Below are positions 1,510 through 43,977 of a DNA stretch of 64,000 nt, in pieces (the stretch's first letter is position 1; each line of letters begins with the position of its first letter). The position numbers were made by a program, and so were the translations under genes. The notes under the pieces were generated by a model. That model saw nothing but the letters and a program-made list of their open reading frames with translations. It did not search any database and was not told the origin of the DNA. The stretch is from Nitrospira sp. (GTDB taxonomy: Bacteria; Nitrospirota; Nitrospiria; Nitrospirales; Nitrospiraceae): contig JALHPO010000005.1 in assembly GCA_022842445.1 (NCBI GenBank), positions 1 to 64,000 on the forward strand, read 5' to 3'.

Positions 1510-2043
1510 ATGAACGAACTTATCTGCATCGCGTTTAAGGATTCCGGCACGGCCGATCAGGTGCTCAACGAAATGCGGGCCCTGGAAAGTGAATATGTCC
1601 TGGACCTGGAGGATGCCGTGGTCGTCGTCCGTGATCGGGATGGGAAGGTCCACCTGAAACAGTGTGTCGACATCTTCGGTGGAGCGACGCCCCATGGCGT
1701 GGCGCTGGGCATGTTATGGGGCGGGCTGATCGGCCTGCTCTTCATGAATCCCCTGGCAGGGCTGTTGGGATCACTGGCGGGAGGCGCAGGGGGAGGAGCC
1801 ATGACCGTCGCGGCGAGTGAATCCGGAGTGCTGAACGATTATGGGATCCCCGACAATTTCATTAGGGCCCTCGGCAGCACCATCCGGCCAGGCACCTCGG
1901 CGATCTTCCTGCTGGTTCGGAACTTCAAGGAAGACAAGCTGTTGGCCGGAATCTCCAAATACGAGGGAACCATCCTCAAATCCTCGCTCACGAAGGAGCA
2001 CGAAGAGAAGTTGCGGACCGCCCTTAAACGTAACCAATCTTGA
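1510..2043 (+). CDS. DUF1269-like membrane protein with glycine-rich core
   Basis: MNELICIAFKDSGTADQVLNEMRALE...VVVVRDRDGKVHLKQ...GLLGSLAGGAGGGA; start preceded by AAGGAGATGAACC. Confidence 0.75.
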   Translation: MNELICIAFKDSGTADQVLNEMRALESEYVLDLEDAVVVVRDRDGKVHLKQCVDIFGGATPHGVALGMLWGGLIGLLFMNPLAGLLGSLAGGAGGGAMTVAASESGVLNDYGIPDNFIRALGSTIRPGTSAIFLLVRNFKEDKLLAGISKYEGTILKSSLTKEHEEKLRTALKRNQS

Positions 2044-2105
2044 TCTGCCTGCGGCCTGATGATATAAGCTGAGCTGAGAGACGCGCATTCGGCAGCCAAC
2101 CAACT

Positions 2106-2174
2106 ATGACGACCGTTCGGCAGAGCATCGGGATTAGCATGGCGGCGGCGATGATGATCGCCAGCTCCGCCTAA
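2106..2174 (+). CDS. Possible short leader peptide (22 aa) upstream of threonine ammonia-lyase
   Basis: ATG...TAA encodes MTTVRQSIGISMAAAMMIASSA, followed by a terminator hairpin and then ilvA. No strong Shine-Dalgarno. Confidence 0.25.
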   Translation: MTTVRQSIGISMAAAMMIASSA

Positions 2175-2209
2175 GCCTGCCTGCGACTGGAAACATACGC
2201 GAGCAACGG

Positions 2210-2246
2210 CCCCTGGCGGATTCGGTTCTGCCAGGGGTTTTTTATT
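2210..2246 (+). terminator. Rho-independent terminator (possible attenuator) upstream of ilvA
   Basis: CCCCTGGC-ggattcggttct-GCCAGGGG followed by TTTTTT. Confidence 0.75.
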
Positions 2247-2287
2247 GTCTACGGGCCGGAATGAATCAGAAAAAGGGAGAACGAAGC

Positions 2288-3496
2288 ATGGTCACTCTTG
2301 AATCGATCGAAGCAGCCGCAACCCGCATCGGTCCGTCCATCTATGAATCGCCGTTGGTGCATTCCAAAACCCTGTCCCGGCTGAGTGGGAACGCGATTTT
2401 TCTGAAACTTGAAAATCTGCAGATGACCGGATCGTTCAAGGAGCGCGGCGCGTTGAACCGCATCCTGACGATGACGGACGATGAACGGCGGCAGGGAGTC
2501 ATCGCGGCATCGGCAGGAAACCACGGACAGGGCGTCGCCTATCACGCGACCCAGCGGAGCATTCCCGTGCAAATCTGGATGCCGCGTTCGACGCCGCTCA
2601 TCAAGCTGACGGCGACCCGAGCCTACGGCGCGGATATCGTGTTGCACGGAGACAATTACGACGAGGCCTGCGAGGCAGCCATTGAACGGAGCGTGCAGAG
2701 GAACGCCGTGTTTATCCATCCCTTTGACGACGACGCGGTCATCGCCGGACAAGGAACCGTCGGGCTGGAACTCCTGAAGCAAAACCCCGCACTGGATGTG
2801 ATCCTGGTGCCGGTAGGAGGCGGCGGACTGATCGGCGGGGTCGGCTGTGCGGTCAAGGAACGAAACCCAGCGGTCGAAGTGATCGGCGTTCAAACAAGCC
2901 GACTACCGTCGATGCACCAGGCGCTGCAGCAACAGCACCCCGTCGATCTCCCGGCAAAATCCACATTGGCCGACGGGATCGCCGTTCGAAAAGCAGGCGT
3001 GCGCACGCTGCCGCTGGCCCGCAAATATGTCGATCGGCTCGTCACAGTCGAGGAAGACGAGATTGCGGAGGCGATTCTGATGCTGCTCGAAGGCGAGAAA
3101 ACGGTGGCGGAGGGGGCCGGCGCCGTTGCGCTTGCCGCCGTGCTGCAAGCCAAAACGGGCCATCGCGGGAAAAACATCGCGGTGCTGGTGTCCGGGGGCA
3201 ACCTCGACGTGACACTGCTGGCAAGAATCATCGAGCAAGGTATGGTTCGGGACGGGCGACGGCTGCGTCTGCGAGTGCGTCTCCCGGACTATCCCGGCGC
3301 ATTGGAAGGACTGGCATCGGTAATCGCCAAGGCCCAGGCCAATATCATGGAGACGTCGTATAACCGCGCGCACTACGGAGTGAGCCTGAACGAAGCTACG
3401 ATCGACATCACGATGGAAACCCGCGGGCGCGATCACGCGTCGGATCTCTTGGCCACGCTGACGAGTTCGCGTTATGAATTCAGCGTCGTCGAATGA
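2288..3496 (+). CDS. ilvA: Threonine ammonia-lyase (PLP-dependent, with C-terminal ACT-like region)
   Basis: PLP lysine motif GSFKERGALNR, SAGNHGQGVAYHA, VPVGGGGLIGG. Start 2288 preferred (GGGAGA upstream); the ORF extends to 2261. Confidence 0.9.
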   Translation: MVTLESIEAAATRIGPSIYESPLVHSKTLSRLSGNAIFLKLENLQMTGSFKERGALNRILTMTDDERRQGVIAASAGNHGQGVAYHATQRSIPVQIWMPRSTPLIKLTATRAYGADIVLHGDNYDEACEAAIERSVQRNAVFIHPFDDDAVIAGQGTVGLELLKQNPALDVILVPVGGGGLIGGVGCAVKERNPAVEVIGVQTSRLPSMHQALQQQHPVDLPAKSTLADGIAVRKAGVRTLPLARKYVDRLVTVEEDEIAEAILMLLEGEKTVAEGAGAVALAAVLQAKTGHRGKNIAVLVSGGNLDVTLLARIIEQGMVRDGRRLRLRVRLPDYPGALEGLASVIAKAQANIMETSYNRAHYGVSLNEATIDITMETRGRDHASDLLATLTSSRYEFSVVE

Positions 3497-10719: not shown

Positions 10720-10843
10720 CAGGATGCTGAAAAAGTCCGCCAGCGGCGTTCTCGCATCGCTCAGAGGCTCACCGTACGGCACGGAGTACGATTCACCTCT
10801 TCGCTCGCTGCGGCCTTGCTGAACGGCCATTTTGAGCATCCTG
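10720..10843. repeat. Long palindromic intergenic repeat, family P copy 1
   Basis: CAGGATGCTGAAAAAGTCCGCCAGC... versus reverse complement of right end CAGGATGCTCAAAATGGCCGTTCAGC...; central CGTAC-N8-GTACG. Confidence 0.75.
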
Positions 10844-10864
10844 TAGAGCTACTTATGGACGCGA

Positions 10865-34592: not shown

Positions 34593-35666
34593 TTAGCTGA
34601 GATTGCGAAGAATCGCATCCCCCATCTCGGTCGTCCCGACGATCCGGGCACCGGGGCTTTGAATATCTTTGGTCCGATACCCGAGGTCGAGCGTTTTCAC
34701 GATAGCCTGTTCAATGGCCGCCGCTTCCTTCTCCAGCTGAAACGCATAGGACAGCATCATGGCCGCCGACGCAATCGTCGCGATGGGATTCGCGATGTTC
34801 TTCCCCGCAATATCCGGCGCACTGCCATGGATCGGCTCGAACAGGCCGACCTTGGCGCCGACACTGGCGGACGGCAACATCCCGATTGAGCCCGTCAGCA
34901 TCGCCGCCTCGTCGCTGAGAATGTCTCCAAACATGTTGTTGCACAGAAGCACATCAAACTGGCGCGGATTGCGCACCAACTGCATCGCGGCATTGTCCAC
35001 ATAGATATGCCCCAGTTCGACATCGGGATAGGAGGCATGCACCTCGATCACCACCTTGCGCCATAACTCGGACGATTCCAGGACGTTAGCCTTGTCCACC
35101 GACGTGACCTTTTTCCTCCGCTTTCGCGCAGCCTCGAAAGCCACCTTGGCAATCCGCCTGACCTCTTCCGTCGTGTAGACCTCCGTATTGATGCCCCGCT
35201 CTTCGCCGTTTGGTAATTTCTCAATGCCCTTGGGCTTGCCGAAATAAATACCGCCTGTGAGTTCCCTGATCACGAGGATATCGATCCCCTCAATCACCTC
35301 AGGCTTCAGCGTGGAGGCGTCGATGAGATTGGGATACACCTTGGCCGGACGAAGGTTTGCATAGAGCCCCAAGGCCTCCCGGATTCCGAGCAACGCGCGT
35401 TCCGGTCTGAGAGTGTAATCAAGCCCCTCCCACTTGGGGCCTCCCACCGCCCCCAGCAAGACCGCATCGCTTTGTTTCGCAAGCGCTAACGTCTCATTGG
35501 GCAACGGAACCCCCGCCTTGTCGATCGCCTGTCCGCCGATATCGGCAGCCACGAACTGAAACGTATGATGATACAACTCCCCGATCGCTTTCAAAATCTT
35601 CACCGCTTCGGGAACAATTTCTCGCCCCACACCATCACCGGCCAATACCGCAATTTTCGCGTTCAC
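34593..35666 (-). CDS. leuB: 3-isopropylmalate dehydrogenase
   Basis: [56 protein letters not shown]. Confidence 0.96.
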
Positions 35667-35704: not shown

Positions 35705-36067
35705 TTACTCCAACACCGTTTCATCTTCGATCCGCCAGGCAGGATCGACCAGACACAGAAACTCAACATCCACAGCTCCACTGTTTTCGAGCGACTGTTG
35801 CCCTCCGGGCGGGACATAGATCGTCGTTCCGGCTTCAATCGCCGTCACACAATCATCGATGGTAAAGCGTCCCTGCCCGGCAATGAAGTAATAGACCTCG
35901 GACGAGGTCAGAATATGCCGTTTCGATCGCTGGCCTGGAGGTAACACCCCGTGCGCAAGGCTATACCCCAGCTTCAGTTGGTGTGTAGTCGGGTGGAAGA
36001 TCTCTCGCAGACGCGTCAGATCACCGGCCAGAAATTCCGGACGATCCGCCAGCGTAACCTTGAACAC
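35705..36067 (-). CDS. Small cupin-domain protein
   Basis: SEVYYFIAGQGRFTIDD...GTTIYVPPGGQQSLENSG. Confidence 0.85.
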   Translation of the reverse strand: MFKVTLADRPEFLAGDLTRLREIFHPTTHQLKLGYSLAHGVLPPGQRSKRHILTSSEVYYFIAGQGRFTIDDCVTAIEAGTTIYVPPGGQQSLENSGAVDVEFLCLVDPAWRIEDETVLE

Positions 36068-36130: not shown

Positions 36131-37678
36131 TCAAATCAAGTTCACCTTCTGCTCACCTTGAGCTTGTTTTGTCGCCAGGTAGGCCAGTTTGTTCAATGCG
36201 CTCAAATAGGCGCGAGCCGAAGCCGTGATGATATCAGTATCGGCTCCATGCCCCGAAACCGTCCGGCCGTCTTCCTGGACCCGCACCGAGACCTCACCCT
36301 GCGCGTCGGTTCCGCCGGTGATCGCCTTCACCACATACATCAGCAACGTGCTCTTTGTCTGCGTGATCGCGGCAATGGTGCGATAGACGGCATCCACCGG
36401 CCCGTCGCCGGTCCCGGTCTGGAGGACGGGCTTCCCGTCGATTTCCAGTTCGACCGTCGCCGTCGGGACTTGATCCGTTCCGCTCGAAATATGCATGGAC
36501 TTCAGGATGATCCGCTCCGCCATCTTAGCCAATTCTTCCGACACAATGACTTCGAGGTCCTCTTCGAAGATTTCCTTCTTTTGATCGGCAAGCTTCTTGA
36601 ACCGTTCGAACGCATGGTTGATCTCGTCTTCGGTCAGCGTGTACCCCAATTCGACCAACCGCTGCCGAAATGCGTGCCGGCCTGACAACTTGCCCATCAC
36701 CATCTTGCTCTCGACGAGGCCGACCGACTCCGGCCTCATAATTTCATAGGTCGTTTTGTCTTTAAGCAGACCATCCTGGTGAATGCCGGAGGTATGCGCA
36801 AACGCGTTGGCGCCCACGATGGCTTTGTTCGGCTGCACGACCATGCCCGTGATCTTGCTGACCAGACGGCTGGCTTTGGCAATCTCTTCGGTCCGGATCT
36901 TGGTGTCGGCGCCATAGAAGTCCTTTCTCGTTCGAAGCCCCATGACGATTTCTTCCAACGAGGTATTGCCCGCGCGCTCTCCGATTCCGTTGATCGTGCA
37001 CTCCACCTGCCCGGCCCCATTGACGATGGCCGCCAGACTGTTGGCCACGGCAACCCCCAAATCGTTGTGGCAATGGACTGAGATGACCGCCTGCTTGGCA
37101 TTGGGCACCTTGTCGCAAATCCCCTTGATCAACGCGCCGAACTCTTGTGGAACCGCATAGCCGACCGTATCGGGGATATTCACGGTGCCGGCCCCGGCCG
37201 CGATAACGGCTTCAATAACCTCGTACAAATAGGCCGGATCGGAACGGCTGGCATCCATCGGCGAGAACTCCACGTCGTCGACATAGCCCCGCGCCCGCTG
37301 GACCATCTCGACCGCGCGCTGCTTGGCCTCCTCGCGGGTCATCCGAAACTGATGTTTCAAGTGGATGTCCGAGGTTGAGAGGAACGTATGGATGCGGACC
37401 TTCGGCGCCCCTTTCAATGCTTCCCAGGCCCGATCGATATCTTCCGGACGAGCCCGCGCCAGGCTGCAAATCGTCGGCCCGTCCACTTCCTGAGCGATAC
37501 GCCGCACGGCCTCAAAATCACCGGGCGAACTGTACGCAAACCCCGCTTCGACGATATCGACGCCGAGACGCGCCAGTTGCTTGGCGACCATGACTTTCTC
37601 TTCTACATTCATACTGGCGCCCGGCGACTGCTCGCCGTCGCGCAGCGTCGTATCGAAAATTCGTATCATGCGTGTCAT
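36131..37678 (-). CDS. leuA: 2-isopropylmalate synthase
   Basis: [42 protein letters not shown]-terminal LeuA allosteric domain. Confidence 0.97.
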
Positions 37679-37698
37679 ATTGTCACCTCTTTTCGATT

Positions 37699-37824
37699 CA
37701 GACTGCTCAAAACGGTCGTCCGGCAAGGCCGCAGGCGCAGAAGGCACCGCAGGCGTACCCGCTGGGGTACGTTGGGGATGCCTTCAAGACGAGAACGCAG
37801 CCGACGGCCGTTTTCAGCAGTCTG
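37699..37824. repeat. Long palindromic intergenic repeat, family P copy 2
   Basis: CAGACTGCTCAAAACGG...CCGTTTTCAGCAGTCTG; central CGTACCCGCTGGGGTACG. Confidence 0.8.
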
Positions 37825-37825
37825 T

Positions 37826-38089
37826 AAAAACACAAAAGCCCTCATCCCTCATAAGTCAGGGACGAAGGCTCGACGCACTTCGTGGTACCACCCTGTTTCA
37901 GCTCCAAACAACCCGACGTTGCTCAGAACCCTTCATTCAGCCCGTCACGTGGGCAACACGGAATCCACGACTCAGCGTTCATGGATTCAGGCTCGGAGGC
38001 GAGTTCGGCAATACCTGGGCTGGTTCGCACCGTCCACCAGCTCTCTCATATCCAGGCGCTTTGCCTACTACTCCTCGTCACAGCCGCTC
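37826..38089 (-). promoter_or_regulatory. T-box leader (tRNA-Leu, CUC specifier) upstream of leuA
   Basis: Minus strand: stem I with GAGGAGTAGTAGGC (AGTA motif), GGTGCGAACC and GAACTCGCC specifier loop; T-box AGGGTGGTACCACG antiterminator; terminator AGCCTTCGTCCCT-gacttatg-AGGGATGAGGGCTTTTGTGTTTTT. Confidence 0.92.
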
Positions 38090-38126
38090 AAAACTCTTCT
38101 CGCGCCCACTCCCATACCGGACGATT

Positions 38127-38933
38127 TTACGGTTTCGGCTCAAGCGACGGCGCTTCTGTTTTCGCCGGGCCCTTCTTCCCCATCGCCTGCGCAACCAGCC
38201 AGAATAAGCGCTCAACCGGCCCCATCAATGCATAGCCGGCAAAGATCACGAATAGCATAACCTGGGGCCACGCCGCCACCATCATCAACGTGAGGATGCC
38301 CCAGACCAGATAGGTAATCTGCTGGTGTCCCTTGAATTTGAGGTCTTTGAAACTGCGGTACTTGATCGTACTGACCATCAGGAACGACAGCGCCAGGGTG
38401 ATGATCAGAACGAAAACCGGCTTGACGTCCGCTCCCATTCGAATGGTGTAGTGATCGAATACGACCAGCGACGCCACGACTCCAGCTGCCGCTGGAATGG
38501 CCAGACCGGTAAAGTACTTGCCGTCTGACTGGGTCACGGTCGAATTGAACCGGGCCAGCCGCACCGCGCCCATTGCCACATAGGCGAACATAACCGCCAC
38601 CCCGAATGATCCCTGCCCGCTCAACGCCCAGGAATAGAGCAGAAGTCCCGGGGCGACCCCGAACGATACGACGTCAGAAAGCGAATCATACTCCAACCCG
38701 AAATGGCTCGTGCTGTTGGTCAATCTGGCCGACTTGCCGTCGAGGACATCAAACACCATCGCGACAAGAATCGCGATGGCCGCCATCAGGTAGTCGCCGT
38801 TGAATACCGAGAGAATCGCATAGACTCCGCACAACAAATTGCCGGTCGTGAAAAGATTGGGGATCAGATGCATGGCGGCCTTGCGCTGCTTACTGTCTTT
38901 GGCGAACGAGTTTTTGAACGCAGCGGTTTTCAT
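38127..38933 (-). CDS. pssA: CDP-diacylglycerol-serine O-phosphatidyltransferase
   Basis: LIPNLFTTGNLLCGVYAI, DVLDGKSARLTNSTSHFGLEYDSLSDVVSFGVAP; start inside the longer ORF. Confidence 0.93.
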   Translation of the reverse strand: MKTAAFKNSFAKDSKQRKAAMHLIPNLFTTGNLLCGVYAILSVFNGDYLMAAIAILVAMVFDVLDGKSARLTNSTSHFGLEYDSLSDVVSFGVAPGLLLYSWALSGQGSFGVAVMFAYVAMGAVRLARFNSTVTQSDGKYFTGLAIPAAAGVVASLVVFDHYTIRMGADVKPVFVLIITLALSFLMVSTIKYRSFKDLKFKGHQQITYLVWGILTLMMVAAWPQVMLFVIFAGYALMGPVERLFWLVAQAMGKKGPAKTEAPSLEPKP

Positions 38934-39580
38934 CGCAGCTCTCCTATGACGGTTTCTCCGCCTTTCACATGATCGCCGATGGCCACGCGCAGGCTCGTGC
39001 CGATCGGAAGGAACGTGTCCATTCGTGACCCGAACCGGATCAATCCGAATCGTTCGCCCCTCACCGCCGGGTCCTTGGGTGACGCCCAACAGACGATGCG
39101 CCGGGCAATCAGCCCAGCCACTTGCACGCACAACACCTTGATACCCTCGGTCGTACGAATCATCAGCGCATTCTGCTCGTTTCGCAGCGTCGCTTCCGGC
39201 CTGCTGGCAACCAAAAACGCCCCCGGCTGATATTGAACATCTTCGACCGTCCCATCGCAAGGCATCCGGTTGATGTGCACATTGAACACGTTCAAAAATA
39301 TCGTCACGCGAACCGCACGATCCTTAAGATACCTGGGCTCGAATTCCTCCTCGATGGCGATGACTTTCCCATCGCCGGAAGCCACGACGAGGTGCGGATC
39401 CCTGGGAATGACCCTGGCTGGATTGCGGAAGAACCACGCGACAAAGATCGTGAGCAGCGCTGCCCCGACTGCCGGGACCACCCAGCCCAGCCAACCTGTC
39501 AACAGTGTAACGCCGGCAGGAACCGCGATGAAAGGAATTCCTTCTTTGGCGAACGGGACGCCAACGGCACGATCGACCAC
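38930..39580 (-). CDS. psd: Phosphatidylserine decarboxylase
   Basis: FFRNPARVIPRDPHLVVASGDGKV, HINRMPCDGTV, RFGSRMDTFLP; overlaps the pssA start. Confidence 0.92.
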   Translation of the reverse strand: MVDRAVGVPFAKEGIPFIAVPAGVTLLTGWLGWVVPAVGAALLTIFVAWFFRNPARVIPRDPHLVVASGDGKVIAIEEEFEPRYLKDRAVRVTIFLNVFNVHINRMPCDGTVEDVQYQPGAFLVASRPEATLRNEQNALMIRTTEGIKVLCVQVAGLIARRIVCWASPKDPAVRGERFGLIRFGSRMDTFLPIGTSLRVAIGDHVKGGETVIGELR

Positions 39581-39716: not shown

Positions 39717-41308
<1,592 letters not shown>

Positions 41309-41311
41309 CTC

Positions 41312-41343
41312 TCTCAGCACTGAGCACTGAGCACTCAGCACTT
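41312..41343. repeat. Low-complexity repeat (CTCAGCACTGAGCACTGAGCACTCAGCACTT)
   Basis: Near-tandem CAGCACT/GAGCACT units between ilvH and ilvB. Confidence 0.7.
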
Positions 41344-41348
41344 CCCTT

Positions 41349-43124
41349 CTATGCCGTCAATACCGTGTCTTTGTCTTGCGGCGTGACTTTCGTTCCACCG
41401 GCTTGCTTCTCCTTCAATTCCGGCGGATCCTCGAGAATCATCTCATGGTTGCAGCCGCCGGCCGGGATCATCGGATAACAATTCTCAAACCGATAGGTCG
41501 GGACATCCACAATGACCGGTCCCTCGGTCTCTATGGCCTTTTTCAACACGCTGTCGAGATCGGCCACCTTGTCAGCTCGTAATCCGACCGCGCCGTACGC
41601 TTCCGCCAACTTGACGAAATCCGGCGTGTTTTCGAGATCACTCGACGCATAGCGTCCGTTGTAGAACAGGTCCTGCCACTGCCGCACCATGCCGTGGAAT
41701 CGGTTGTTCAGAATGATGATTTTTACCGGCAGTTTGCTCACAACCGCCGTCGCCATCTCCTGCATATTCATTTGAATACTGCCGTCTCCGGCAATACAGA
41801 GGACGAGTCGATTACGGAAGGCAGCCTGTGCGCCCATGGCCGCGGGAAACCCGAACCCCATAGTCCCGAGACCGCCCGACGTCAACCAACGATTCGGTTT
41901 GGCCAGCTTGAAATACTGGGCCGCCCACATCTGATGCTGGCCCACGTCCGTCGAAACGATCGGGTCGCGATCCTTCGTCAGCTCGTACAGTCGCTTCACC
42001 ACCTGTTGCGGCTTAATCGGCCCATCTTTATCCTGTTGATAGGTCAGCGGATGCGCTTGCCGCCATGCCTGAATCTGATCCCACCAGGGCTTCCGAAGCT
42101 CTTTCTGTTCGCCGTTTACCGTGGCCCGAAGAATCTGGTTCAACTCCCGAAGCACAGTTTTGCAATCGCCGACGATCGGAACATCGACGTGAATGTTCTT
42201 CCGGATGGATGTCGGATCGATGTCGATATGAATGATCTTGGCATGGGGACAAAATTCCGAGACCTTGCCCGTCACCCGATCGTCGAATCGCGATCCGACA
42301 GCGATCACGAGGTCGGAGTAATGCACCGCCATGTTCGCTTCGTAGGTCCCGTGCATGCCCATCATCCCCAAGGACAGCGGATGTTCGCCGGGAAAGGCGC
42401 CGAGGCCCATCAGCGTCATATCGACGGGGATCTGCGTCATTTCGGCCAATTCAAGCAATTCTTGGGACGCACCGGAGAACACGACCCCGCCGCCCACGTA
42501 GAGGATTGGCTTCCTGGCTTTGGTAATCGCTTCAGCCGCCTGTTTGATTTGCCACTTATTCCCCTCGTATGTCGGGTTATATCCGCGGATCGACACGGAA
42601 TTCGGGTAGCTGAACTCCGCCTCTGCCATCGACACATCTTTGGGAATATCGACCAGGACCGGCCCTGGACGGCCGGTCGTGGCAATATAGAAGGCTTCTT
42701 TGATTGTGGCAGCCAAATCGTTCACATCTTTGACCAGAAAGTTATACTTCGTGCAAGGCCGGCTCAAACCAACGTTGTCCGCCTCCTGAAACGCATCGTT
42801 TCCGATCAAGCTGGTCGGGACTTGCCCGCTGAAGCAGACCAGCGGGACAGAATCCATATAGGCATCAGCCAACGCAGTAATCACGTTGGTCATTCCAGGA
42901 CCGGACGTCACGAGACACACGCCGGCCTTCCCGGTGGCCTTCGCATAGCCTTCGGCCATATGGCCCGCCCCTTGTTCATGGCGTGTCAAAATAATCTCGA
43001 GGTCCTTCTGTTGGTAAAGCGTGTCGAATATCTTCAGGACCACGCCGCCGGGAAGCGCAAACACGGTCTTGACCCCTTCCCGCTTCAGGCATTCGATAAA
43101 GATTTGAGCGCCGGTGAGTTTCAT
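41349..43124 (-). CDS. ilvB: Acetolactate synthase large subunit
   Basis: MKLTGAQIFIECLKREGVKTVFALPGG, TPP-binding GDGSIQMNMQEMATAV. Confidence 0.98.
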   Translation of the reverse strand: MKLTGAQIFIECLKREGVKTVFALPGGVVLKIFDTLYQQKDLEIILTRHEQGAGHMAEGYAKATGKAGVCLVTSGPGMTNVITALADAYMDSVPLVCFSGQVPTSLIGNDAFQEADNVGLSRPCTKYNFLVKDVNDLAATIKEAFYIATTGRPGPVLVDIPKDVSMAEAEFSYPNSVSIRGYNPTYEGNKWQIKQAAEAITKARKPILYVGGGVVFSGASQELLELAEMTQIPVDMTLMGLGAFPGEHPLSLGMMGMHGTYEANMAVHYSDLVIAVGSRFDDRVTGKVSEFCPHAKIIHIDIDPTSIRKNIHVDVPIVGDCKTVLRELNQILRATVNGEQKELRKPWWDQIQAWRQAHPLTYQQDKDGPIKPQQVVKRLYELTKDRDPIVSTDVGQHQMWAAQYFKLAKPNRWLTSGGLGTMGFGFPAAMGAQAAFRNRLVLCIAGDGSIQMNMQEMATAVVSKLPVKIIILNNRFHGMVRQWQDLFYNGRYASSDLENTPDFVKLAEAYGAVGLRADKVADLDSVLKKAIETEGPVIVDVPTYRFENCYPMIPAGGCNHEMILEDPPELKEKQAGGTKVTPQDKDTVLTA

Positions 43125-43311
43125 GACGGCTTCCTCCAACTACAAGATTGGACGTCAGATCCCATGATCGACCGCCCTTCAACACCAGAAACCCTGATCG
43201 CTGCGGCAGTACTACGCGCCGCAATCATTCAGAAGTTCTGAAAAATCAATGGGAAAGATCGGAGATCCTACCATCCTGCTTCCAAAGGGTCAATAGCGAG
43301 GACGGCGCGTG

Positions 43312-43380: not shown

Positions 43381-43481
43381 ACGGAGCGCGAAACAACGGA
43401 CCAGTAATGTCTCGGCGCACTGAGACGGATGATCGCAGTAGACTTGCGCGCGACTACGGCGGGCAGAAAAGAGCGCAGATG

Positions 43482-43900
43482 TGAAAGCCTATAAGCCGGA
43501 TTCTGTCCCGCGAAGAAGTCGCCCTCCTCGCTTGGATGATCATTTCTCTGGGATTCGAGTCACCTCGAACCTCAAGCGGCCTACCCGAAGACCTCGACCG
43601 GGCCAGTCGGTGTGCAAGACACGCAAGGCGTCTTACAGATGTCTTCCTATTTGGCCTTGCACCGGGCGACGCTTACCATGCCGGTGATGTTGCCACCACC
43701 GCGGTGGGCTCTTACCCCGCCGTTTCACCCTTACCTGAGCCTTGGCGACCAGATGGGATCCCGTCGCGTCGGCCATCGGCGGTTTGATTTCTGTGGTGCT
43801 GGTGTCGGATTGCTCCGCCTGGGAGTTACCCAGCGCCCTGCCCATGGAGTCCGGACTTTCCTCCCGATGCCGAAGCATCGAGCGATCACCCAGCCTTCAC
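43482..43900 (-). ncRNA. rnpB: RNase P RNA (bacterial type A-like)
   Basis: Minus strand 5' GAAGGCTGGGTGATCGCTCGATGC...GGAGGAAAGTCCGGACTCCATGGGCAGGG... to 3' ...ACAGAATCCGGCTTATAGGCTTTC. Confidence 0.93.
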
Positions 43901-43977
43901 ATCCACGCACATACAGTATAAAGAAAAGCGACAGGCCGTGACAAGAACGTACACGGGCGGATCACACGAGCGATGAG

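Follow-up and report, generated by a model that had tools for sequence, protein, structure and literature searches.

The minus strand of the window (the whole 64,000-nucleotide stretch of DNA analysed) carries a complete class I, transcription-type leucine T-box leader upstream of leuA, at 38090..37826. It is highly probable that this leader is a class I transcriptional leucine T-box riboswitch that serves as the leuA attenuator and that, by position, lies inside an ilvBNC-psd-pssA-leuA-leuB unit. Sequence and covariation establish the structure, the two competing hairpins, the specifier, the target gene, and the family-wide conservation. The first-pass annotation, made from the letters alone, had proposed a leucine T-box here and a comparison with the Rfam T-box model RF00230. 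In a focused scan, the model matches 38090..37855 over its full length (model positions 1-219) with 92.2 bits and an E-value of 8.4e-21. The leader is absent from the default whole-window Rfam scan, which applies curated cut-offs, only because its score is 0.8 bit lower than the gathering cut-off of 93 bits; its relatives in the genus score 93-102 bits with the same model. The identity of the T-box is beyond doubt, because matches are present in 75 of the 79 genus genomes and the covariation is strong.

Architecture of the leader

The leader, including the terminator and the U-rich tail, spans 37826..38090 on the minus strand (RF00230; covariation of 43 leaders), and all elements quoted in the first-pass annotation (the AGTA motif of Stem I, the loops, the specifier, the T-box, the terminator, and the U-rich tail) are present there. 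Stem I (37990..38085, assigned by covariation) is composed of a GGC/GCC base, K-turn GA pairs, the specifier loop, and a distal stem, and contains the loop strand AGTAGTA. The specifier codon CUC (leucine) is located at 38001..38003, within GAA-CUC-GCC. The tRNA-elbow-binding module (38025..38046) is made up of the AG bulge AGAGA (38046-38042) and the distal loop GGTGCGA (38031-38025; GGUGCGA in the RNA), and is defined by invariant positions: A45-A49, G60-G63, and A66 are invariant in alignment A1 of the leaders. Stem II (37961..37988) presents an S-turn-like GAA/AGU internal loop, and its helices 6-7 are 94-98% paired. It is followed by the Stem IIA/B pseudoknot (37940..37960; CGTG/CACG and GCC/GGC, helices 8-9) and by Stem III (37900..37930), which is taken from the predicted fold in a region where the alignment is gappy.

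The antiterminator, CAGGG-UGGUACC-ACGAAG...CUUCGUCCCUG, occupies 37857..37895 and has helices 10-11 that are 98-99% paired; its T-box bulge UGGUACC (37890-37884) is invariant in the leaders. The terminator hairpin AGCCTTCGTCCCT/AGGGATGAGGGCT (37837..37870) is supported by terminator prediction, folding, and covariation. Its stem in the terminator prediction, 37871..37836, is followed by the U-rich tail TTGTGTTTTT, and the tail as a feature, TTTGTGTTTTT at 37825..37836, is identified by sequence and terminator prediction. The hairpin is found on the correct strand, as the first-pass annotation had it, and its helix is kept across the leaders (93.0% paired). The segment CTTCGTCCCT is common to the antiterminator and the terminator, indicating that the two are mutually exclusive. 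Computed separately, the antiterminator has a free energy of -15.2 kcal/mol versus -23.3 kcal/mol for the terminator, indicating that the terminator is the default state.

The leader region is more stable than 200 of 200 dinucleotide shuffles (z -3.5). In the covariation sample of 43 leaders from the phylum, standard pairs fill 92.4% of the cells at the proposed pairings, and changes on both sides of a pair are observed in 240 cells versus 73 in shuffles. As a control, sliding the partner by 1-3 columns gives a pairing of 35-47%. Helices 1-5 of Stem I are 84-100% paired, with both-sided changes at every pair of helices 3-5. Within the pseudoknot, helix 9 is 96.1% paired, and each of its three pairs shows changes on both sides; helix 8 is 57% paired, its inner pairs being poorly kept.

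From these elements we infer a response to tRNA charging. The CUC specifier of Stem I would read the GAG anticodon of tRNA-Leu. When tRNA-Leu is uncharged, its ACCA end would pair with UGGU of the T-box bulge and hold the antiterminator, so that the polymerase would continue into leuA, the cupin gene, and leuB. When tRNA-Leu is charged, the stronger terminator would form and transcription would stop.

Distribution and the cognate tRNA

The window genome has one T-box only. In the 4 of 79 genus genomes that have none, a proper leuA is missing or leuA is broken at a contig start. Many named Nitrospira LeuA proteins share 91-94% identity with that of the window, in agreement with the Nitrospira-like origin suggested earlier. 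Among 80 named leuA loci, the motif is found by pattern in 78 and by Rfam in the other two. L066 and L099 were considered as loci without a T-box and rejected as such, since both carry one; L132 has the T-box motif but no Rfam match at 0.01. The specifier is CTC in all inspected named Nitrospira leaders where the pattern gave a codon, in accordance with the proposed leucine specificity. CUG is found instead of CUC only in L043 and L046, which are small-genome relatives, pointing to tRNA-Leu(CAG) as the putative ligand there. Nine loci of one Nitrospira subgroup (L009, L014, L017, L019, L021, L023, L024, L026, and L030) contain a hairpin-like insertion of ~18 nt beside the AG bulge of Stem I. 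In L099, ~1.2 kb including a lipoprotein-like reading frame (1839-3001) separates the T-box from leuA.

The survey across Nitrospirota that had been proposed finds T-boxes in 125 of 396 genomes and 24 of 169 genera of the phylum sample. They are present also in families f6, f9, f15, f16, and f19 of other branches (f1, f2, f9, and so on are anonymous family labels; f1 includes N. moscoviensis and N. defluvii). Wherever the downstream DNA was read and the gene identified, the gene behind the T-box is leuA. A limited search of the open literature found no paper describing a leucine T-box of the Nitrospira lineage.

The CUC specifier calls for a tRNA-Leu(GAG), and the expectation that the genome encodes one holds for the relatives and not for the draft. 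A census of the draft genome (3.46 Mb, 90% complete), based on RF00005 matches and sequence stretches, gives 39 tRNAs and no tRNA-Leu(GAG); the leucine anticodons of the draft are TAA, TAG, CAG, and CAA. Complete relatives carry tRNA-Leu(GAG) with discriminator A and the 3' end GGCACCA, and the 5'-UGGU-3' of the T-box bulge is complementary to its ACCA end. In the relatives the gene is located ~17-18 kb downstream of tRNA-Leu(TAG). Two relatives are collinear with contig C10 of the window genome over the stretch that runs from tRNA-Leu(TAG) to the contig's final base, and the contig ends short of the position of the GAG gene. Because of this collinearity, the absence very likely reflects an assembly gap. 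A true loss of the gene was considered and rejected, since synteny puts it past the end of the contig.

Three other readings of the leader can be weighed against these data. Its score of 92.2 bits against a cut-off of 93 and the lack of tRNA-Leu(GAG) in the draft would both fit a decayed, non-functional T-box. However, all functional motifs are intact, the close relatives at 93-102 bits show conservation through many species, and the tRNA gene is placed beyond the end of a contig that is collinear to its last base; decay is therefore very unlikely. Translational (class II) T-boxes that hide the ribosome-binding site exist in Actinobacteria (PMC1262725), but here the antiterminator has a competing terminator with a U-tail, placed ~150 nt ahead of the start of leuA and leaving the ribosome-binding site unsequestered, so that this class has a negligible chance. 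A putative ribosome-mediated leucine leader-peptide attenuator occurs in the same slot in the sister family f2, as described below. The small frames of the window leader, however, contain three leucines at most and no leucine run, and the T-box match and the covariation account for the sequence, making a leader peptide in place of the T-box extremely improbable.

Position of the T-box in the gene cluster

The genes around the T-box lie on the minus strand in the order ilvB (41349-43139; Pfam PF02775), ilvN (40790-41341; PF10369), ilvC (39717-40781; PF07991/PF01450), psd (phosphatidylserine decarboxylase; 38930..39580; PF02666), pssA (CDP-alcohol phosphatidyltransferase; 38127..38933; PF01066), T-box, leuA (36131..37678), a cupin-domain protein (35705..36067; PF07883), and leuB (isopropylmalate dehydrogenase; 34593..35666; PF00180). 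The leuA product is a 2-isopropylmalate synthase of 515 residues whose HMGL-like domain (PF00682) and LeuA_dimer regulatory domain (PF08502) confirm the predicted target. At its ilvB end, the cluster is directly preceded by a class A RNase P RNA (43476-43901, minus strand).

In the window, Stem I follows the pssA stop codon by 37 nt. In a set of 125 loci, the distance from the pssA stop to the T-box start ranges from -4 to 146 nt, with a median of 10, and in many relatives pssA ends inside the T-box or at its first base. The order psd-pssA-leuA is found in 76 of the 80 named loci. Because the T-box abuts the pssA stop in nearly all relatives and has no conserved promoter, it probably serves as an attenuator within ilvBNC-psd-pssA-[T-box]-leuA-leuB rather than as the leader of a free-standing leuA transcript.

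Alternatively, the T-box could head a separate leuA transcript that starts from a dedicated promoter in the final part of pssA, its closeness to pssA being a matter of compact packing. T-boxes usually lie near a promoter, and in the window genome the hexamer TAAAAT is located 40 nt upstream of Stem I. However, no sigma-70-like promoter was found near the T-box on the minus strand, and a -10-like hexamer is present in only 5 of 104 T-box upstream regions, matching the frequency in a control stretch. The many relatives in which pssA runs into the T-box or up to its first base also argue against a separate transcript, which we consider rather unlikely. A non-consensus promoter within the pssA end is possible, and transcription could also restart in the gap of 136 nt between ilvC and psd.

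With the T-box as an internal attenuator, transcription would arrive from upstream, and when leucine is plentiful the ilvBNC-psd-pssA mRNA would have the T-box terminator as its 3' end. The valine/isoleucine genes would then stay on while leuA tracks leucine alone. The internal position would thus explain how leucine is tuned apart from valine and isoleucine within one gene cluster.

An imperfect palindrome of ~128 nt (37696..37824, minus strand; 124.8 bits with model R1) separates the terminator from the ribosome-binding site of leuA. Model R1 was built from leuA-associated copies. Most Nitrospira leuA leaders have the palindrome at the same site, and about 15 lack it. It was considered as a leuA-specific regulatory element and rejected, since R1 matches number in the tens per genome, both in this family and in related ones, with counts that are inflated by hits on both strands. 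One further copy is located in the window at 10720-10846 (plus strand). The ends of the palindrome covary, and copies occur across Nitrospira relatives and in one class-level relative. By these sequence comparisons, the palindrome is a dispersed repeat outside the T-box. Of the copies compared, the one most similar to the window palindrome is the leuA copy of N. moscoviensis (87%) rather than any from the window genome itself, which weakens the notion of a fresh insertion in each species. Copies also precede tRNA-Leu(GAG) and tRNA-Leu(CAG) genes by a few bases (L182, 1542-1665; G000 contig C10, 60244-60371).

The leuA slot in related families and in known systems

In ten loci of the sister family f2 (L262, L263, L298, L303, L306, L268, L291, L295, L300, and L265), the region between pssA and leuA gives no T-box match even at E 1. 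The f2 leuA is 74-77% identical and again lies behind psd and pssA. In several f2 genera, a conserved leucine-rich leader peptide and a terminator are present instead of the T-box. In g16, the frame starts a few nucleotides past the pssA stop, is preceded by AAGGA, and encodes MDQWQGKGRGTLLLGDAVLTLAGLLKLSVTP-like peptides, which have 31 residues in seven species and 4-8 leucines. In the species measured, the terminator U-run ends 55 nt past the stop codon of this frame. In g16, dN is smaller than dS in 20 of 21 pairs, with modest ratios. The g17 peptide, MRKLQGKGRATLLLCKNHLTLLGLLETSALI, has the same length as in g16 and contains 10 leucines, and most of the g19 peptides terminate in CLFLLGKV or a similar sequence. 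The genus g20 of f2 has neither a T-box nor a leader-peptide sensor.

The f2 leaders were folded with a simple masking model. In g19, the RNA before the 3' arm of the terminator is predicted to form an antiterminator of the GATCGGG...CCCGATC type (-9.4 to -16.7 kcal/mol), and the terminator is predicted to form when a ribosome is positioned at the stop codon. The antiterminator predicted for g16 is weak (-4 to -6 kcal/mol). The terminators of g18, g19, and g28 contain AGCCTTCGTCCC, the 12-mer of the T-box terminator, which occurs 0-3 times per genome.

Taken together, the f2 leaders suggest that one leucine sensor was replaced in place by another. Because pssA-[T-box]-leuA is found also in other classes, the simpler reading is that f2 lost the T-box and replaced it; a transfer is possible. 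Leader-peptide control of leucine genes (PMC1262725) and T-boxes (PMC2494555) are each known, and we found no report of an exchange between them at the leuA locus in the limited open literature.

Four genomes of family f9 (L307-L310) have leuA T-boxes with the CUC specifier, Stem II, the T-box bulge, and the terminator. Their Stem I closes just above the specifier loop as a hairpin of 4-5 bp, and the AGAGA / GGTGNRA tRNA-elbow module is absent from all four. In TBDB, transcriptional T-boxes have a longer Stem I than translational ones, and hits with a truncated Stem I are assigned to the class II model (PMC7778990). The f9 T-boxes keep the terminator.

On balance, we lean toward a single history for these loci, in which, within one order, a phylum-ancestral pssA-leuA T-box would have been exchanged in f2 for a leader-peptide attenuator that reuses the T-box terminator, f9 would have kept a transcriptional T-box with a shortened Stem I, and the sensor would throughout be an internal attenuator splitting leuA from ilvBNC-psd-pssA. 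Families f1, f2, and f9 would then form a natural series with two unrelated leucine sensors in the same slot and a common terminator sequence; therefore, the conversion of one attenuation mechanism into another is directly testable. The points that stand out are the internal position, which holds for every intact leuA of the genus, and two apparent changes, one of the sensor in f2 and one of Stem I in f9. Throughout the Nitrospira lineage, which comprises nitrite oxidisers and complete ammonia oxidisers, the window T-box and its relatives extend direct sensing of tRNA to leucine synthesis.

The kind of T-box is itself already known. T-boxes of leuA in Deltaproteobacteria, mentioned in the first-pass annotation, were reported in 2008 for Geobacter sulfurreducens and Pelobacter carbinolicus (Wels et al. 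2008, PMC2494555); the evolutionary context is the interesting part. The Geobacter and Pelobacter T-boxes are likewise located directly upstream of leuA in a Gram-negative lineage, but belong to a different phylum. The B. subtilis ilv-leu T-box (references cited in PMC2494555; PMC12452182) likewise uses a CUC specifier, a leucine tRNA, and transcription antitermination. In B. subtilis, however, one T-box heads the whole ilvBNC-leuABCD (PMC12452182), whereas the Nitrospira T-box stands behind ilvBNC-psd-pssA and before leuA only. The window leader shares Stem I, Stem II, Stem IIA/B, a predicted Stem III, the antiterminator, and the terminator with the class I T-boxes of RF00230 and TBDB (PMC7778990), and scores just below the curated cut-off. 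Leucine leader-peptide attenuators, of which f2 has putative members in the same slot before the same gene, sense charging via the ribosome and not by direct tRNA binding.
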